From: Sphingobacteriales bacterium 16-39-50
GTDB taxonomy: Bacteria > Bacteroidota > Bacteroidia > Sphingobacteriales > Sphingobacteriaceae
Assembly (NCBI GenBank): GCA_002257025.1
Contig: NCHA01000003.1
Coordinates: forward strand, 124,001-188,000
Direction of reading: 5' to 3'
DNA length: 64,000 nt
Positions 5,866 through 60,573 of this stretch are shown in pieces. The notes under the pieces are model-generated. The model was not told where the DNA came from and did not search any database. It saw only the letters and a program-made list of their open reading frames with translations. Within the stretch, counting starts at the first letter, position 1. Every line of letters begins with the position of its first letter. Both the position numbers and the translations under genes were made by a program.

Positions 5866-6540
5866 TTATTCCAGCAAATCAGGGCGGCGCTTTTTAGTGC
5901 GCTCCAGAGCCTGCTCATGCCTCCATTCATTAATAGCTGCCTCATGCCCGCTTAACAGAATATCAGGCACCTTATGCCCCTGCCAATCGGCCGGACGGGT
6001 ATAGACAGGTGCGTCAAGCAACTCTCCCTGAAAAGAATCGGATAAGGCGGATGTTTCGTCGTTCAATACACCCGGCAATAACCTTACAATACTATCGACT
6101 AAAACAGCAGCAGGTAATTCACCTCCCGAAAGAACATAATCCCCGATTGAAATTTCCCTGGTCACAAAAATATCTCTTATCCTCTGGTCGATGCCTTTGT
6201 AATGACCTGCGAGAATAATCACATTTTTATTATCAGAAAGTTCATTGGCCATACTCTGATTGAGTGTCTCACCATCGGGTGTCATAAAAATGATCTCATC
6301 ATATTCACGCTCTGATCTCAGCTTTTCAATGCAGTTTGCAAAGGGCTCGATACTCATCACCATTCCACTGCCACCACCATACTGGTAATCGTCAACAGAC
6401 TTTTGCTTGTTGCTTGAATAATCCCGAAGATTATGTACATGGATTTCGGCAAGTCCCTTCTTTTGAGCCCTCTGTAAAATAGAATGGGCAAAAGGACTTT
6501 GAAGCAGGTCGGGCAATACGGTAATGATATCGAAACGCAT
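5866..6540 (-). CDS. trmD: tRNA (guanine-N1-)-methyltransferase
   Basis: SPOUT-family enzyme that methylates G37 of tRNAs, preventing frameshifting. I start it at 6540 ([15 protein letters not shown]), giving 224 aa. An upstream in-frame ATG at 6618 would add 26 non-conserved residues read from repeat-like intergenic DNA. Visible motifs are the [12 protein letters not shown]-proximal loop, [14 protein letters not shown], and the trefoil-knot loop [20 protein letters not shown] perfect TATCTTTG box sits 4 nt before this ATG, supporting the short start and a near-leaderless mRNA. Confidence 0.95.
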
Positions 6541-6544
6541 GATG

Positions 6545-6552
6545 CAAAGATA
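6545..6552 (-). promoter_or_regulatory. Candidate -7 box (TATCTTTG) of trmD
   Basis: Minus-strand TATCTTTG fits TAnnTTTG exactly and is separated from the trmD ATG by CATC. If used, transcription would begin at or next to the start codon. No -33 TTTG is obvious at the expected distance. Confidence 0.42.
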
Positions 6553-6681
6553 GGAAGGAGATATGAGATATGAGACAGGAGATGTGAGAAGCGGGGTAAA
6601 GCAGATAAAACCCGGCAATCGATAATAATCCTGACCGCATCACTCCAAAAATGAACTCGGCCAGGATTTTAATTTGATCAA

Positions 6682-7995
6682 TTATCCCTTTTTCATCTTA
6701 TTGATCCAGATCAGCGTACCAGTTACCGGCAGACTTGTAGCAATTAAACAGGCCAGAAAATAAATAATCTTGGAGAGCTTCCCATAAACATCACCCACAT
6801 GCAAAGCCTTTATGGAGTTGGAAACTCGTTCATTAAATGGTTTTTCTGAAAAGATCTCTGATTTAATCAATGCTGAAGTATATTGATCGAGATAGATCTT
6901 ATCTGCTGCAACAGGAGCGAAAAATCCAGTTTGGGTTTTATTTACCAATACAGCATCTGCAGAGTCGGCTGGAATACTGATAGTCAGATCACCTTGATAA
7001 TCAAGAACATTATTAGCTGATTTAATATGATCTGTAAGTAACACAGATTTTGTTGCATTCATGGCGGCAATATCTGATTTCGGGGTTTCGGGTTTCGGAG
7101 CACCTTCAGACTGGTAGGTTCCCAGCGACTTCCTCAGACCGGTTCTATACCATTCGAAAGACCATTGCGGACCGGTTATACCCATCAGGAATAAAAAAAT
7201 GCAACTATAAAAACCAAGGCTGTTATGAATATCATGATTTACCCGTTTCCAGTTTGCATTCCATTTTATTTTCAGACCCTGTTTCCAGCTTCTGATTTTT
7301 TGAGGAAACCAGATTATGATACCTGTAATGACTCCCAGGGTAAATAAAATTGTTGCGGTTCCACTAATATAGCTGCCCAGTTTCCGGTTAGGCAATTCCC
7401 CAATAAGTGGTTCTTCTATCCTGTCGAGTAATAACCAGCGATGTAAACTGAACATTATTTGCATAAATTCGGAAACAGCGTTTTTATCAGCACTGCTTCC
7501 CAGTATTTTTCCTGAATAGGGGTTTACCATATACTGAACTCCGCGTGGAGGAGGTCCCGGTTTTTCAACAGCTCCAGCTCCGGCTTTTCCCTTAGCTCTT
7601 TCGGGGACCGAGCCCTTACCTGCTTCTTCAGGTCTGGCAGATCCCTTTTCACCCTTTCTCTCTCCCGGCTTAGATTCTTCCGCTTTCCTGACAGTCAGCA
7701 CATAAGTTCTTTCAGGATCGGCCGGAATCTTAATACTGATTACTTTACCACCCGTTTCACGACCTACAGCCGCGATCAGTTCTTCTGGCGAAAGCCTTTG
7801 GGCATCTGCGGCATGGCTGACCTTGTAAAGTTCAGGGCTGGATAATTCTCTGATCTCCGTATTAAACACATAAATAGTTCCGCTTAGACAAATCAGCAAT
7901 ACAATGATACCACTGGGTAATCCGATCCACAGGTGGACGTCATTCAGGAATTTGCGCAGTTTAGGCCAGTTAGCTTCAGTTTTTCGTTGTTTCAT
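6682..7995 (-). CDS. PepSY-associated TM helix (PiuB-like) membrane protein
   Basis: Inner-membrane protein of the PepSY-TM family, commonly found beside siderophore receptors and thought to act as a reductase or helper in iron release. The 437 aa contain an N-terminal helix (about 23-45) after a cytoplasmic WPKLRKFLNDVHLWIGLPSG start, a PepSY domain, TM segments near 215-235, 265-285 and 405-430, and the conserved HRWLL and NHDIHNSLGFY histidine stretches. A Lys/Glu/Gly/Pro-rich stretch of about 50 residues (roughly 105-153) interrupts the first PepSY region. It starts 34 nt after the TonB-dependent receptor and is almost certainly its operon partner under the same iron control. Confidence 0.87.
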   Translation of the reverse strand: MKQRKTEANWPKLRKFLNDVHLWIGLPSGIIVLLICLSGTIYVFNTEIRELSSPELYKVSHAADAQRLSPEELIAAVGRETGGKVISIKIPADPERTYVLTVRKAEESKPGERKGEKGSARPEEAGKGSVPERAKGKAGAGAVEKPGPPPRGVQYMVNPYSGKILGSSADKNAVSEFMQIMFSLHRWLLLDRIEEPLIGELPNRKLGSYISGTATILFTLGVITGIIIWFPQKIRSWKQGLKIKWNANWKRVNHDIHNSLGFYSCIFLFLMGITGPQWSFEWYRTGLRKSLGTYQSEGAPKPETPKSDIAAMNATKSVLLTDHIKSANNVLDYQGDLTISIPADSADAVLVNKTQTGFFAPVAADKIYLDQYTSALIKSEIFSEKPFNERVSNSIKALHVGDVYGKLSKIIYFLACLIATSLPVTGTLIWINKMKKG

Positions 7996-16189: not shown

Positions 16190-19015
16190 ATGCAAAAAGT
16201 CAATAGCTATAAAGATTATAACTCAAGGCTGAGCAAAAAAGTCGGACTATTGATTATACTCAGCTTGCTTTTTTTTTGCAGACTAAGCCAGGCTCAAAAC
16301 TCGTCTCATACTGAATTAAACAAGCTGGTTGATTCAGTAAAAACCTTTTACGAAAGCCGTGCCATTGAAAAACTCTACCTGCAGCTCAACAAACCCGAAT
16401 ATCTTAGTGGTGATACAATCTGGTTTAAGGCTTATCTTCTTGATGCTATACTACTTAAAAACGCTCAAAAAAGTGGTTTAATGTACATTGAGATCGCTTC
16501 AGACAGCAATAAAGTAGTCAGCCGCATCATGGTTCCACTTTTGAATGGTATTAGCTGGGGCAATATTGCATTGAATGCCAAAGAATTTCCGGAAGGATCC
16601 TATACTTTGAGAGCTTATACAAACTGGATGAGAAATTTTGGAGAAGAGCATGTATACCTCCAGCACTTCAGGGTAAGTTCTGCCACAAACCAAAATTGGC
16701 TTGTTAATTCGAACATGGAGCTTACTAAAGTGAACGGGAAAGACAACATAAATTTATTTATGCAATTCCGGGATTTGAAAGGTACGGCTATGGGTTTACG
16801 CAACATGCAATTCAGATTAACTAATGGAAAAAGAACCTTGTTCAAAGAGGAAAAGGAAAGTTCCCTTTACGGTGAAGTGGAGCTAAGTTTTGAACTTCCC
16901 GAAAAGGTTGATGCAGAGAGCATACGACTTATCGCTGAAAATCAGCGTAAAAATGTGATCAGTACAAAACTTCTTATTTCACTTCCAATCAGGCGTCCCG
17001 AAAATACAGATCTTCAATTTATGCCCGAAGGAGGGCATCTTGTGTCAGGACATTTGGCAAATATTGCATTTAAAGCGATTGCTGAAGACGGGAAGGGAAC
17101 AGCTGTTTCGGGGCTGATACTCGACCAAAATCAAAAAGAACTAACTTCCTTTAGTTCGTCATATAAAGGAATGGGAAAGTTTCGCCTAATGCCCCGACAG
17201 GGAGAATCCTACACGGCAAGAATCAAACTTCCCGATGGTAATACGAAAGACTATTCCTTACCTCTTATAAAAGATAGCGGCACAACATTAAAAGTAATCA
17301 ATCGCAGAGAAAGTGATTCGCTGGAAGTTCAGATTTTATATAGCTCAGATCAGCAACTGAGTGAAGACCATTTCTTTATTACTGCACAGACAAACGGACT
17401 GCCATATTATGGAGCTGCTGTGGTACTGAAACAGGGTTTGAACCACATCATTATTGATAAAAATCATTTCCCTTCCGGCATTTGCCGGATCTCTTTATTA
17501 AATGGCAAACGCAATCCATTAAACGAGCGCCTGGTTTTTATTGATCATCAGGAGGAACTCAGAATAAAACTAATCAGCGATAAAACTTCTTATAAACCAA
17601 GAGACAGTATTTCATTGGCAATACTCGTTCAGGATAAACAAGGCAGGCCCGTTCAAGGTAGCTTTTCACTTTCGGTGACGGATGATAACCATGTAAAACG
17701 TGATAGCATAAACGAAAAGAATATATTGAATACTTTGCTCCTCGATGCGGACCTCAATGGGAATATTGAGGCTCCCGGATATTATTTTCTATCAGACCAG
17801 AAGGATAAAGCATGGGCTGACCTGGATAATCTCCTTCTAACCCAGGGTTGGACAGGCTTTAGCTGGCCTGAGACACTTAACCAGCAAAAACCATTGCTGT
17901 TTCCTGCTGAAAGTGAATTCAGTATCAGTGGTACAGTAACAAATATTTTTAACAAACCTGTTGCAAACAGCGAAGTCCTGCTGCTTTCAAAAAAGCCTTT
18001 TCTGTTTATGGACACCCTCAGCAATAAAGAAGGGAAGTTTATATTCAGGGATTTCCCGCTGGCGGATACTGCGGTTTACATGATCCAATCGAGAAACAAA
18101 AGAGGTAAAAGTTTCAACGTAGGTATTGAAATCGACGAGTTTATACCCCCTGTCTTCACGGCTTCAAATGAACCTTATATACCATGGTATATCAATACTG
18201 ATACGCTTTTAATAAAGAGTACCCGGAATACCATTCATGAACAACACCGCTGGGACGCTCCGGCCGGAGTAAATGTGCTTGAAGAGGTAGTGGTTACCGC
18301 AAAGAAGTTCATCAAAGATTCCAGGAACAGAAATGGCCCGGGGAATGCCGATTACATTCTGGATGAGCAGGATATGCTGAAAGCAAAGAAGAAAACCTTG
18401 TATGAAATGCTGGAAGAACGTTTCCCAGGATTCAGAAGTGGCAAGGGTATGTCTGTTAAAGATTTTAACTCAACAGACACGATGAGATATGTCCTGATGC
18501 AATCTTATGTAAATCTTGTTATTGATGGGGTAAATATCAGCTCCATAGGAGCAACCGAGGAGATTTATATGGATTATCTGACCGCAGAAGATATAACCGG
18601 TATAGAAATACTCAAAAGTCCTAAATATGCATGGGCTTATGATCCAAGAATCGCAAGCAAAATGAGGGGCTGCATGAGATGTCCCCCGCCACCAATATTT
18701 CTTGAAATAACCACCCGTTCAGGTAATGGAGCATTTTTGAAAAAAACACCAGGCGTATATTTATATAAACCTATTCCTTACAGTTTTCCTGCTGAGTTTT
18801 ACCGGCCCAAATATCCGGTGAATAAGATTGAAAGCATTGCCGACCTTCGCTCGGCCATTCACTGGGAACCAAATATCATCACAGATGCTGAAGGTAAAGC
18901 AACGATTTCCTTTTACGCCGCGGATTTACCCGGATATTATTCAATTGTTCTGGAAGGAACAGATATGAATGGGGGAATAGGAATGGGGAGAAAAAAGATA
19001 GAAGTAAGGAAGTGA
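16190..19015 (+). CDS. Large periplasmic MG2-like protein with a C-terminal TonB plug-like domain
   Basis: 941-aa exported protein. A signal peptide (about 20-36, ending SQAQ) is preceded by an unusually long n-region. The YLSGDTIWFKAYLLD block (about 67-81) is the hallmark of alpha-2-macroglobulin MG2-like proteins of Bacteroidota. Several beta-sandwich modules follow, then a carboxypeptidase-regulatory-like module (SISGTVTNIFNKPVANSEVLLL, about 577-600). Next comes a plug-like domain starting at EEVVVTAKK (about 700), with VNLVIDGVNISSIG and ITGIEILKSPKYA. No beta-barrel follows; instead come a CMRCPPPP motif and a last beta module (WEPNIITDAEGKATISFYAADLPG). It follows the GLPGLI gene by 6 nt and converges on rimM with a 3-bp gap. 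Confidence 0.82.
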   Translation: MQKVNSYKDYNSRLSKKVGLLIILSLLFFCRLSQAQNSSHTELNKLVDSVKTFYESRAIEKLYLQLNKPEYLSGDTIWFKAYLLDAILLKNAQKSGLMYIEIASDSNKVVSRIMVPLLNGISWGNIALNAKEFPEGSYTLRAYTNWMRNFGEEHVYLQHFRVSSATNQNWLVNSNMELTKVNGKDNINLFMQFRDLKGTAMGLRNMQFRLTNGKRTLFKEEKESSLYGEVELSFELPEKVDAESIRLIAENQRKNVISTKLLISLPIRRPENTDLQFMPEGGHLVSGHLANIAFKAIAEDGKGTAVSGLILDQNQKELTSFSSSYKGMGKFRLMPRQGESYTARIKLPDGNTKDYSLPLIKDSGTTLKVINRRESDSLEVQILYSSDQQLSEDHFFITAQTNGLPYYGAAVVLKQGLNHIIIDKNHFPSGICRISLLNGKRNPLNERLVFIDHQEELRIKLISDKTSYKPRDSISLAILVQDKQGRPVQGSFSLSVTDDNHVKRDSINEKNILNTLLLDADLNGNIEAPGYYFLSDQKDKAWADLDNLLLTQGWTGFSWPETLNQQKPLLFPAESEFSISGTVTNIFNKPVANSEVLLLSKKPFLFMDTLSNKEGKFIFRDFPLADTAVYMIQSRNKRGKSFNVGIEIDEFIPPVFTASNEPYIPWYINTDTLLIKSTRNTIHEQHRWDAPAGVNVLEEVVVTAKKFIKDSRNRNGPGNADYILDEQDMLKAKKKTLYEMLEERFPGFRSGKGMSVKDFNSTDTMRYVLMQSYVNLVIDGVNISSIGATEEIYMDYLTAEDITGIEILKSPKYAWAYDPRIASKMRGCMRCPPPPIFLEITTRSGNGAFLKKTPGVYLYKPIPYSFPAEFYRPKYPVNKIESIADLRSAIHWEPNIITDAEGKATISFYAADLPGYYSIVLEGTDMNGGIGMGRKKIEVRK

Positions 19016-53132: not shown

Positions 53133-54125
53133 TTATAAACCTAGTTTGGCAGAAATTTCCAGCATACGTTCAATTGGTAACTGAGCTCTTTTTATAATAT
53201 CTGCAGGGACAGTAACCTCAGGCAGATCATTCTTAATACACAAATACAGCTTCTCGAGTGTATTTCTTTTCATATGCGGACAATCATTGCATGCACATGA
53301 ATTATCAGGAGGAGCCGGAATAAATATCTTGTCAGGATTAGCTTTTTCCATCTGATGAATAATACCACTTTCAGTAGCCACAATAAATTCCTTAGCAGGA
53401 TTATTTATAGTGTACTTCAACAAACCGGTAGTAGATCCTATATAATCAGCCATCTTTAAAATAGCATCTTCACATTCAGGATGTGCAATAAATTTAGCTT
53501 CCGGATGTCTGTTTTTTAATTTCAAAATACGCTGTTGTGAAAAAATTTCATGGACCATACATGCACCATTCCATAAAACTAAATCCCTTCCGGTTTTCTT
53601 TGCTACCCAGGCTCCTAAATTTTTATCGGGTCCAAAGATAATTTTCTGATCTTTTGGTAAGCTTTCCACAATTTGTACTGCATTTGAGGAAGTACAAACT
53701 ATATCGCTCATCGCTTTTAGCTCAGCAGTACAATTTACATAGGTAATTACTAAATGATCAGGGTATTTTTCTTTAAACTTTGCAAATAATTTTGGCGGAC
53801 AACTATCTGATAATGAACATCCTGCTTTTAAATCAGGCAATAATACTTTTTTTGACGGAGATAATATTTTTGCGGTTTCTGCCATAAAATGAACACCGGC
53901 AAATACAATTACATCTGCATCAGTTTTAGCTGCCTGCTGTGATAAACCGAGACTATCTCCAATAAAATCTGCAATATCCTGTATATCAGGCTCCTGATAA
54001 TAATGTGCTAAAATAACTGCATTTTTTTCCTTTTTCAATCTGCATATTTCAGCAAAAAGATCGAGAGTTGGATCTATTGGCTCATCAATAAAACCTTTAA
54101 TATTTAATTCTTCTAAGGTATTCAT
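53133..54125 (-). CDS. nadA: Quinolinate synthase A
   Basis: [4Fe-4S] enzyme condensing iminoaspartate with dihydroxyacetone phosphate to quinolinate in de novo NAD synthesis. 330 aa. Cluster-ligand regions: [10 protein letters not shown] (C103), WNGACMVHE, and [11 protein letters not shown] near 275-285. [22 protein letters not shown] (40-61) is the substrate site. It is divergent from nadB across the 409-bp gap. Leads a minus-strand string of six genes. Confidence 0.96.
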
Positions 54126-54534
54126 TTATCAACTATTCAATAATTATAATTTATATTATAGATAAGAATCTTATTGTTTATTAGTGTGTTGGTATTGTGA
54201 ATAATAAACTTAATATTCTTTCGCATTAATTGTTTTTAATTAATTATCCACAAATTCTAAACATTATTTTTATTATAAATAACTGATTACTAAGCTTTTT
54301 AATTATCCAATTATTTTTATAAAATTTTATTTGTTTAGTTTTTCTTCCTTATAAAAGGTGGAATACTCTTAATTTTTTGCTTATAACTAAATCAAAAATA
54401 AGGTAAATTCGGCTTATTAGAAGTATTTATGAGTCTGTTTGTAAATTAATCAACCAGTATTAGTACTAAATTAACATCTTTGAGGAGCTTGTTAACATGT
54501 TTATTCATATTCAATATTCTATAATTTTTCATCC
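54126..54534. other. AT-rich nadA-nadB intergenic region, candidate replication origin
   Basis: 409 bp, markedly more AT-rich than the rest of the window. It contains a perfect DnaA box TTATCCACA (54244-54252), a TTATNCACA-type box on the minus strand (TGTGAATAA, 54196-54204) and a one-mismatch box TTATTCATA (54501-54509). A further perfect box in reverse orientation (TGTGGATAA, 54687-54695) lies in the start of nadB. parS-type sites are 6 kb away. It must also hold the nadA and nadB promoters, which I could not pin down. Confidence 0.45.
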
Positions 54535-56124
54535 ATGAAAAATGTTGATTTTTTAGTGATAGGATCCGGGATTGCAGGATTAAGTTTTGCTTTGAAAGCT
54601 GCCAAATATGGTAAGGTTCTGATAGTTACAAAAGCTAATGAGGATGAATCCAATACTAAATATGCGCAGGGTGGTGTTGCTGTTGTTGTGGATAAAGAGG
54701 AAGATTCATTTGAAAAGCATATTGATGACACACTAATTGCCGGCGATGGATTGTGTGATAGGAAAATAGTTGAGATTGTTGTTAAAGAGGGGCCTGCACG
54801 TATTGATGAAATTATTCGATATGGTACCCATTTTGACAAAACCAATAAGGGAATATTTGACCTTGCTAAAGAAGGTGGCCATTCTGAAAGCAGGGTTTTG
54901 CATTATAAGGATATAACCGGTTTTGAAATTGAAAGGGCTCTGCTAAAACAAATTCACAGTGACCCTAATATTGAGATTTTAACTCATTATTTCGCAGTTG
55001 AATTAATAACTCAACATCATATTGGCGAGTTAGTAGGTAGAAGATCAGACAATATTGAGTGCTATGGGATCTATGCGCTTGATACCTCAACTAATAAAGT
55101 TGAAAAATTTTTATCAAAGGTGACTTTAATGGCTTCCGGTGGTGCTGGTCATATTTATGCTACAACCACAAATCCAGTTATTGCAACTGGCGATGGAATT
55201 GCTATGGCTTATCGGGCTAAGGCAAAAGTAAGAAATATGGAATTTATTCAATTTCATCCTACAGCTTTATATAATCCTGGAGAATATCCGTCTTTCTTAA
55301 TATCTGAGGCTGTTCGTGGTTTCGGAGGTGTGCTTAAAACGAAAAATGGTGAGGAGTTTATGCAGAATTATGATGAGCGTGGTTCATTAGCTCCACGTGA
55401 TATTGTAGCCAGAGCTATTGATGCTGAAATGAAAAAATCAGGTGATGATTTTGTTTATCTCGACATCAGGCATCGTGAGAAGGCTGATATTCTATCACAT
55501 TTCCCTAATATTTACGCCAAATGTTTGAGTATTGGTCTGGATATGACACGGGATCTGATTCCTGTTACTCCTGCAGCTCATTATATGTGTGGCGGTATAC
55601 TAGTTGACGAGGATGGTAAGTCTTCAATTCACAGGCTTTATGCCTGCGGTGAGTGTACCTCAACTGGTCTGCATGGAGCAAACAGATTGGCGTCCAATTC
55701 TTTGCTCGAGGCCCCTGTTTTTGCTCACAGGATTTATGAAGATGCGATCAAGGTTTTTAAGAATTATGAAATTCCTGATAATATACCTGAATGGGATGAA
55801 ACTGATACTAAACTTTCAAATGAAGACATTCTGGTAACCCACAATCTTCGGGAAACCCAAAAGGTTATGAGTGATTATGTTGGTATTGTCAGATCTGATT
55901 TCAGATTGGAAAGAGCGATGCGACGTTTAGGATTATTGTATGAAGAAACCGAAAGTTTTTACAAGAAGACAACATTGTCTGTAAAACTATGTGAGCTTCG
56001 AAATGTTATTCAGAATGCTTACATCGTTATAAAATCAGCAATGTTAAGAAAAGAGAGCAGGGGGCTTCATTATACAACTGACTATAAGCCCCATGCACTT
56101 GAGCCACATGATACCGTTTTTTAA
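54535..56124 (+). CDS. nadB: L-aspartate oxidase
   Basis: Flavoenzyme oxidising L-aspartate to iminoaspartate for NadA. 529 aa. The FAD motif is DFLVIGSGIAGLSFALKAA (4-22), then KYAQGGVAVV. The active-site segments are SEAVRGFGGVLKTKNGEEF (near 257-275) and LAPRDIVARAID with the catalytic Arg. AAHYMCGGILVDEDGKSS and the LHGANRLASNSLLEA FAD contact follow. The C-terminal helical domain is complete. Codon third positions look more T-rich than in the genes to the left. The carbonic anhydrase follows after 11 nt. Confidence 0.96.
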   Translation: MKNVDFLVIGSGIAGLSFALKAAKYGKVLIVTKANEDESNTKYAQGGVAVVVDKEEDSFEKHIDDTLIAGDGLCDRKIVEIVVKEGPARIDEIIRYGTHFDKTNKGIFDLAKEGGHSESRVLHYKDITGFEIERALLKQIHSDPNIEILTHYFAVELITQHHIGELVGRRSDNIECYGIYALDTSTNKVEKFLSKVTLMASGGAGHIYATTTNPVIATGDGIAMAYRAKAKVRNMEFIQFHPTALYNPGEYPSFLISEAVRGFGGVLKTKNGEEFMQNYDERGSLAPRDIVARAIDAEMKKSGDDFVYLDIRHREKADILSHFPNIYAKCLSIGLDMTRDLIPVTPAAHYMCGGILVDEDGKSSIHRLYACGECTSTGLHGANRLASNSLLEAPVFAHRIYEDAIKVFKNYEIPDNIPEWDETDTKLSNEDILVTHNLRETQKVMSDYVGIVRSDFRLERAMRRLGLLYEETESFYKKTTLSVKLCELRNVIQNAYIVIKSAMLRKESRGLHYTTDYKPHALEPHDTVF

Positions 56125-58402: not shown

Positions 58403-60265
58403 TTATCTGGCCATATGAACCATTAAAACGGAGATATCTGATGGTGAAACTCCCGAAATACGTGAAGCCTGCCCGAGGGTTCTTGGTTTTATTTTCATCA
58501 GTTTTTCCCTTGCTTCTTTTGACAATGAAACAAGGTCAAGATAATTAAATTCAGGATTGATAGTCTGATCTTCCATTCGTTTCATTTTATCTACTATCTC
58601 GAGTTCCTTTTCAAAGTAGCTTTCATATTTCACTTTTATTTCTGCCTGTTCAACGGTTTCCCTGTCATATTTATTTAGTAATTCACTGAACACTAAATCT
58701 GCTTTTTTAAGATCTTTAAATCCTATTTGAGGCCTGGTTATGAGCTGAAACATTTTTACATTTTGCGATATACCCGGTGTACCCTGTTCTTCAAGAATAG
58801 CATTTACCGCCTCGGGTCCAATTGAAGTAGTTTTCAAGTAGCTGACCAGATGATCAGCATTTTCTATTTTCTTATTTACCTTATCAAATCGTTCATCCGA
58901 AATTAATCCTAATTTGTGACCTATTGGACTTAGTCTGATATCTGCATTGTCCTGTCTTAATAGTAGTCTATGCTCGGCTCTTGAGGTAAACATACGATAA
59001 GGTTCTTCAGTTCCTTTTGTTACCAGGTCATCTATTAATACACCGATATACGATTCAGCTCTTTTTAGAATTAGTTCTTCCTTGTTATTTATTTTGAGGT
59101 GTGCATTAATTCCAGCCATAAAACCCTGACAGGCGGCCTCTTCATATCCTGTAGTTCCATTTATTTGTCCGGCAAAATAGAGGTTACCTATATTTTTTGT
59201 CTCAAGAGTAAGTCCAAGTTGTGTAGGCGGAAAGAAGTCATATTCAATTGCATAGCCCGGTCTGAACATTTTTGCTTTTTCGAAACCAGGAATTTTAGTT
59301 AATGCCCTATATTGCACGTCCTCTGGTAGGGAAGTTGAAAAACCGTTTACATAGATCTCCACAGTATTCCATCCCTCTGGTTCTACAAAGATTTGGTGCC
59401 TGTCGCGTTCAGCAAAGCGGTTGATTTTGTCTTCTATCGATGGACAATAGCGTGGACCTAATCCTTTGATGCGGCCTGTAAACATTGGAGACTTTTCAAA
59501 GCCTTCTTTAAGTGTTTCATGTACTTCCGAGTTTGTATAGGTTATCCAGCAGCATTTTTGCTCTTTTGGTAGAACCACATCGGTATAGGAGAATCTTCCA
59601 CGTTCCGGATCTCCCCATTGTTCTTCCATCTTTGAATAGTCCAGCGAACGTCCGTCTACCCTGGGAGGAGTTCCGGTCTTCATTCTGCCTGCTTCGAATC
59701 CTAACTCAACCAGCTGTTCTGTTATTCCTGTTGCTGATTTCTCTCCTGTTCTACCACCCCCAAATTTCTTTTCACCTATATGGATTATCCCATTCAGGAA
59801 TGTTCCATTTGTCAAAACAACTGCTTCTGATCTTATTTTTAGACCAAGCGATGTCCTTACTCCACATGCTTTATTGTTCTCTATAAGTAGAGAAGTCGCT
59901 GTATCCTGCCAAAAATCAACATTTGGAGTACGCTCTAATGCTAATCTCCATTCTTCGGCGAAGCGTTTTCTGTCGTTTTGAGCTCTCGGGCTCCACATAG
60001 CAGGTCCTTTCGAACTATTTAACATGCGGAATTGTAATGTAGTTTTATCCGTAATTATTCCTGAATATCCACCCATTGCATCAATTTCACGAACAATTTG
60101 TCCTTTGGCAACACCACCCATAGCTGGATTACAACTCATTTGAGCTATTGTTTCCATATTCATGGTAATCAATAGAACCCTTGATCCCAAATTGGCTGCT
60201 GCGGCTGCGGCTTCGCAACCTGCATGCCCTGCACCTACTACTATTATATCGTATTTATCAAACAT
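58403..60265 (-). CDS. mnmG: tRNA uridine-5-carboxymethylaminomethyl(34) synthesis enzyme MnmG
   Basis: With MnmE installs the cmnm5 group on U34 of tRNAs. 620 aa. FAD motif [19 protein letters not shown] (6-24), [24 protein letters not shown] (43-66), [22 protein letters not shown], and the C-terminal helical domain ending [37 protein letters not shown]. Known in many bacteria as gidA, close to the replication origin. Two parS-like palindromes lie in the 80 bp in front of its start. Confidence 0.97.
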
Positions 60266-60274
60266 TTTTTATGA

Positions 60275-60290
60275 TGTTCCACGTGGAACT
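60275..60290. promoter_or_regulatory. parS: parS-like palindrome 1 (variant)
   Basis: GTTCCACGTGGAAC (60276-60289) is a perfect 14-bp palindrome with the CACGTG core of parS, 10 nt before the mnmG start codon. It differs from the classic TGTTNCACGTGAAACA in one half-site. Confidence 0.65.
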
Positions 60291-60315: not shown

Positions 60316-60573
60316 CTATTTAATAATTGTTTCACGTGAAACATACTTAAAAAGAGAGATGAGAGCCGCAATCGCCCAAACAGCATTAAGAAAAACAAAT
60401 GGGTAAAATTGTACCAAATAGGAAGAATAACCACACAATGCTGCCCCGGTTAAATTCAAGGTGCTGTACCATTTGCTATCCGTCGGCATCTTTTTCTTTA
60501 AATTGAGATAAAATGCGATGAGCAATAAGCTTACTCCTGCGGATGCCAAAAAATCTGATGTGCTCATATTCAT
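60316..60573 (-). CDS. CBU_0592-like small membrane protein
   Basis: 85 aa with three hydrophobic segments (about 8-25, 38-55, 58-76), matching the small CBU_0592/YgjV-like membrane family; function unknown. Start at Met1 or Met3. Its last codons (V-S-R-E-T) are the parS palindrome at 60328-60343, so the C-terminus KYVSRETIIK is partly dictated by that site. It sits 3 nt after the ABC-F gene and 50 nt before mnmG on the same strand. Confidence 0.8.
   Translation of the reverse strand: MNMSTSDFLASAGVSLLLIAFYLNLKKKMPTDSKWYSTLNLTGAALCGYSSYLVQFYPFVFLNAVWAIAALISLFKYVSRETIIK
60328..60343. promoter_or_regulatory. parS: parS site 2 (perfect consensus), inside a coding sequence
   Basis: TGTTTCACGTGAAACA is a perfect 16-bp palindrome identical to the canonical ParB-binding parS. 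It lies in the last codons of the small membrane protein gene, 38 bp from site 1. Confidence 0.85.

Follow-up and report, generated by a model that had tools for sequence, protein, structure and literature searches.

The divergent nadA-nadB gap as the probable chromosomal replication origin of a Sphingobacteriaceae bacterium

The window analysed here is a 64-kb stretch of DNA on the contig labelled C13 of a 74-contig draft genome. It carries the divergent genes nadA and nadB, separated by an AT-rich gap and followed by mnmG and parS. The NadB product is 83% identical to that of Mucilaginibacter rivuli and about 80% identical to those of Pedobacter, and these named relatives place the organism in or near the Sphingobacteriaceae. 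The elements that frame the locus are as follows.

53133-54125, minus strand: nadA (quinolinate synthase), the left flank, with orthologues in relatives
54126-54534, no strand assigned: candidate oriC region, the divergent nadA-nadB intergenic gap, 409 bp, 80% AT
54134-54183, no strand assigned: predicted DNA unwinding element (DUE), from a nearest-neighbour stability scan
54535-56124, plus strand: nadB (L-aspartate oxidase), the right flank
58403-60265, minus strand: mnmG (gidA), adjoining parS; about 4 kb from the gap, with parS just beyond
60275-60290, no strand assigned: degenerate second parS-like copy, 3 mismatches
60328-60343, no strand assigned: perfect parS, TGTTTCACGTGAAACA, the only site in the genome with at most one mismatch

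The first-pass annotation described this gap as the most AT-rich sizeable one in the window, and the composition agrees: positions 54126-54534 rank highest in AT content among all 409-bp stretches, and no other stretch of that length reaches 75% AT. The lowest-stability 50-bp segment of the entire window also lies here, at 54134-54183, with a value of -47.2 kcal/mol in the nearest-neighbour scan against a window mean of -64.6. It is located on the nadA side of the gap, where it abuts a pair of tandem DnaA boxes and overlaps a TAATAAAC tract. An easily melted, AT-rich element beside DnaA boxes, one of the features by which origins are recognised, is thus present between nadA and nadB. The boxes, box-like sites and associated elements in and near the gap are listed below.

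54126-54134, plus strand: DnaA-box-like site TTATCAACT adjoining the start of nadA, proposed from sequence; relatives carry, for example, TTATCTACA there
54169-54183, minus strand: TAATAAACAATAAGA, a tract conserved in alignments that begins 12 nt after core box 1; putative DnaA-trios, assigned after PMC8287927
54178-54204, minus strand: the whole core, TTATTCACA-ATACCAACA-CAC-TAATAA, present as a single copy in the genome
54187-54195, minus strand: core box 2, ATACCAACA
54196-54204, minus strand: core box 1, TTATTCACA
54244-54252, plus strand: perfect DnaA box TTATCCACA; relatives mostly have a relaxed box at this place
54255-54263, plus strand: DnaA-box-like TTCTAAACA; some relatives have TTATCAACA, TTATCCACA or TTATTAACA
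54468-54476, plus strand: conserved AAATTAACA, followed by TCTTTG; either a box-like site or a piece of the nadB promoter
54489-54497, plus strand: box-like TTGTTAACA; some relatives have TTATTAACA, TTATCCACA or TTATTCACA
54687-54695, minus strand: perfect TTATCCACA inside nadB, 152 bp from the nadB start, moderately conserved

Two perfect TTATCCACA boxes, one in the gap and one within nadB, had been reported as the only ones in the window, together with a minus-strand box in the gap. All three were recovered, at 54244 (plus), 54687 (minus) and 54196-54204 (minus, TTATTCACA), and the 64-kb window holds no third perfect copy. The nadB-internal match is partly explained by conserved VVVDK codons, and its membership of the origin is uncertain. 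Across the genome there are 47 perfect boxes and just two pairs separated by less than 500 bp, one being 54244/54687 and the other C71:138675/138898. The latter was rejected as an origin; skew is uniform there, and the pair brackets an ordinary gene. A close pair of perfect boxes is thus rare, but the argument first made from the boxes also had weaknesses. One-mismatch boxes showed no clear enrichment in the window (26 against 19.7 expected, with 8 of 100 shuffles as high). Similarly, the sliding-window count of canonical boxes that had been suggested as a check singled out the gap in the genome under study (C13) and in G035, and nearly did so in G030, but failed to do so in G015 and G018.

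A stronger signal was obtained with relaxed boxes. In 30 nadA-nadB gaps from the family, 120 matches to TTNTNMACA were found against 20.9 (s.d. 4.8) in dinucleotide shuffles; this pattern, like the core pattern used below, was drawn from the alignment after it had been seen. The canonical pattern TTATNCACA occurred 20 times in the same gaps and its reversed form twice, and no other cluster of three TTATNCACA sites within 500 bp was present among the own-genome matches listed. A clustering of DnaA boxes above chance, as expected of an origin, is therefore found in the nadA-nadB gaps. The perfect box itself is poorly conserved, appearing in just 10 of the 30 gaps, and we take the true signal to be the conserved relaxed boxes together with the tandem core, rather than perfect boxes. 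Near nadB, few parts of the gap are as well conserved between genera as AAATTAACATCTTTG (54468-54482), which may serve as a promoter element for nadB, as a site for DnaA, or as the two at once.

The core lies on the minus strand. In alignments it consists of two tandem boxes, a short spacer of 3 bases and TAATAAAC/TAATAA, continuing as AACAATAAGA. The second position was identified as a DnaA box because Sphingobacterium-type relatives have TTATCCACA or TTTTCCACA there. A pattern search matched the core in 62 of 121 family genomes, exactly once in each and never twice, and the reversed control pattern gave no matches in family genomes. About 40 of the 62 core-bearing genomes had played no role in pattern design. 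In every one of the 62 the core is upstream of nadB, and in 60 it is at a distance of 321-365 bp. Outside the family the pattern was found in 1 of 285 class genomes, as counted from the match table; this sole match is at G212:C4:199611-199637 (L251). About half of the 121 family genomes lack the exact pattern. When some of these were inspected, a recognisable variant was seen in the same gap in G035, G013 and G033, and none was seen in the gap of G026. Occurrence once per genome at a position conserved among relatives is a further property by which origins are known, and it was observed for the core.

The gene arrangement around the core is equally persistent. nadA and nadB are divergent in the family relatives that have both genes in reach, and the same layout is present at named Pedobacter, Mucilaginibacter, Sphingobacterium and Parapedobacter loci. 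Gap length is mostly 398-412 bp in the genus of the window and several other genera, about 447-517 bp in others, and longer in a few. Box-like sites occur at constant places in the alignment, and their letters vary mainly at positions where DnaA boxes vary; one aligned site reads TTATCCACA, TTATTAACA, TTATCAACA or TTACTAACA in different relatives. In a ranking of orthologous gaps by excess identity, the nad gap took fourth place. Its letters alone are thus not exceptionally conserved, and what sets it apart is its size, the retention of its length, and its core. A comparison among relatives that keep divergent nadA and nadB had been proposed as a way to refute the assignment. What those relatives retain is the placement of the boxes, the tandem-box/TAATAAAC core and, often, the length of the gap, with variation in the exact letters of the boxes.

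A pair of parS sites had been noted 6 kb from the gap. The site at 60328-60343 is perfect, but its partner at 60275-60290 is a degenerate copy. Nearly all matching family genomes have a single parS with at most one mismatch, two being present in G023, and wherever parS and nadB were both placed in a family genome, the two shared a contig, with parS 4-14 kb downstream. Proximity to parS, another hallmark of origins, is accordingly a feature of this locus. In most class relatives that were fetched around parS (L231-L244), the site is directly beside mnmG. At the parS loci fetched from other families mnmG is likewise beside parS in most cases and nadA-nadB is elsewhere; for this reason mnmG-parS appears to be the more ancient neighbourhood of the origin, and the nadA-nadB flank appears to be a feature of the family. 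Two other families have nadA within 10 kb of mnmG-parS and nadB elsewhere (L235, nadA at 17635-18597; L237, nadA at 6356-7318), a layout that hints at how nadA became a neighbour of the origin.

Since raw GC skew in the window mostly follows gene direction, strand composition was measured as keto skew at 4-fold degenerate sites with gene strand as a covariate. The plus-strand skew rises across the gap in five of five genomes, which is the direction of an origin and not of a terminus. Values of t at the gap were 6.0 (C13), 5.0 (G015), 4.1 (G018), 5.4 (G030) and 3.6 (G035), compared with permutation 95% limits of 3.0-3.4. Pooling of the five genomes over 300 kb gave a change-point peak at offset 0 with z=10.0. 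A skew minimum elsewhere had been named as a refuting result; what the local analysis revealed was an origin-direction switch at or near the gap in five genomes. As far as this check and the one among relatives reached, both left the assignment standing. The best change points of single genomes are scattered, at -11 kb in C13, +19 kb in G035, +32 kb in G018 and +77 kb in G015.

These data bear on two other accounts of the gap. It might be a long bidirectional promoter or regulatory region serving nadA and nadB only, with sites for an NAD-responsive repressor, for example, and with box matches that are either the sites of that regulator or chance occurrences in AT-rich DNA. The sharing of one gap by divergent genes of a single pathway would fit such an account, as would the conserved AAATTAACATCTTTG near nadB if it is a promoter element. 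We nevertheless regard it as very unlikely, since it leaves unexplained the strand-composition switch centred on the gap in five genomes, the linkage to parS, the occurrence of the core just once in each genome that matches it, and the presence of the least stable DNA of the window beside tandem DnaA boxes. Less likely still is that the gap holds a cluster that titrates DnaA or has a regulatory role, in the manner of datA or DARS, with the true origin some tens of kilobases away. Single-genome change points that fall 10-80 kb off in some cases are compatible with that idea, but pooling puts the change point at the gap, an unwinding-type element adjoins the tandem boxes, and the own-genome matches listed include no second three-TTATNCACA cluster within 500 bp.

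The classical gene context of an origin, with dnaA or dnaN adjoining, is absent at this locus. No dnaA had been seen next to the gap in the window, and the gene was located on a separate contig, C58; in most relatives with complete genomes or long contigs it is about 0.4-1.5 Mb from nadB. One genus, g17 (G035, G103, G120), differs from most others examined in having dnaA close to the nad gap. Even with that genus in its favour, an origin at dnaA, as in many bacteria, is the least credible of these alternatives, given the distance of dnaA from nadB in the other complete or long-contig genomes and a skew switch that stays with nadA-nadB (skew at the dnaA locus having been read from 40 kb of C58 only).

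Taken together, the features of the nadA-nadB gap make it, with high confidence, the chromosomal oriC of this Sphingobacteriaceae bacterium. It had been put forward as a candidate, and the case is now stronger than first stated, drawing on the conserved core, the local skew switch, the linkage to parS and the DUE. Boxes, single-copy core, low-stability AT-rich element, skew switch and parS neighbourhood come directly from the sequence and its comparison among relatives; DnaA binding, the role of the trios, the side of unwinding and helicase loading form a proposed working model. DnaA would fill several of the relaxed TTNTNMACA boxes in the gap. On the minus strand, DnaA bound to the two abutting boxes at 54187-54204 would polymerise over the TAATAAACAATAAGA tract, read as DnaA-trios, and as it spreads the strands would part at 54134-54183, on the nadA side. 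The helicase would be loaded at this opened segment, two forks would depart, one towards nadA and the other towards nadB, and the newly copied origin would be segregated via the parS site beside mnmG, 6 kb away.

On this assignment the locus appears to be a DnaA-type origin of the ordinary sort, unusual in the genes that surround it. Escherichia coli oriC similarly combines DnaA boxes with an AT-rich unwinding region, and gidA/mnmG is its near neighbour. Here, in contrast, about 4 kb separate mnmG from the gap, parS comes directly after it, and the direct flanks are nadA and nadB. The core also matches the basal unwinding system (BUS) of Bacillus subtilis-type oriC (PMC8287927, PMC6669920), with two tandem DnaA boxes, a short spacer, a triplet tract and an easily melted neighbour. 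The published BUS description calls for three or more trios no further than 16 bp from a box, places the spacer peak at 10-13 nt, and gives tandem boxes as the most frequent arrangement (PMC8287927). In the nad gap the distance from box to tract is 12 nt, inside that peak (PMC8287927), and the run AAT-AAA-CAA-TAA-GAA, read by eye after the tandem boxes in aligned cores, supplies the number of middle-A trios called for within 16 bp of the boxes. The nad gap departs from the B. subtilis type in that its boxes are relaxed (TTNTNMACA), TAATAAACAATAAGA is a degenerate trio run and not a repeated TAG, and dnaA is not adjacent. In gut bacteria including Bacteroides caecimuris, the parts of PMC10197239 that we consulted describe origins that were located from skew and clusters of parS and did not always coincide with dnaA. 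The proposed origin resembles these in its skew and parS signals and in lying away from dnaA; the bacteria are different, and a nadA-nadB location does not appear in those parts of the study. We found no paper in the searched literature that names a nadA-nadB origin location, which DoriC may already list, and none that maps an origin in the Sphingobacteriaceae. The gap has the testable features of a DnaA-type oriC and departs from it only in dnaA gene context.

It is conceivable, though we consider it improbable, that the origin and the nad genes are functionally tied across the Sphingobacteriaceae, with transcription of the divergent nadA/nadB pair affecting DnaA binding in the gap between them and vice versa, so that NAD synthesis is coupled to initiation. 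Independently of such a tie, a core present in one copy and at a constant place between two genes would offer a marker for the true zero point of chromosomes in this family. Several complete records begin at dnaA, which puts their start as much as about 1.5 Mb away from the proposed origin; in G092, whose record starts there, the core is at 1.47 Mb. The gap is also small enough to be a convenient candidate for testing origin function in laboratory strains of Pedobacter or Sphingobacterium, and for asking how widely Bacteroidota use a mechanism of boxes plus trios.
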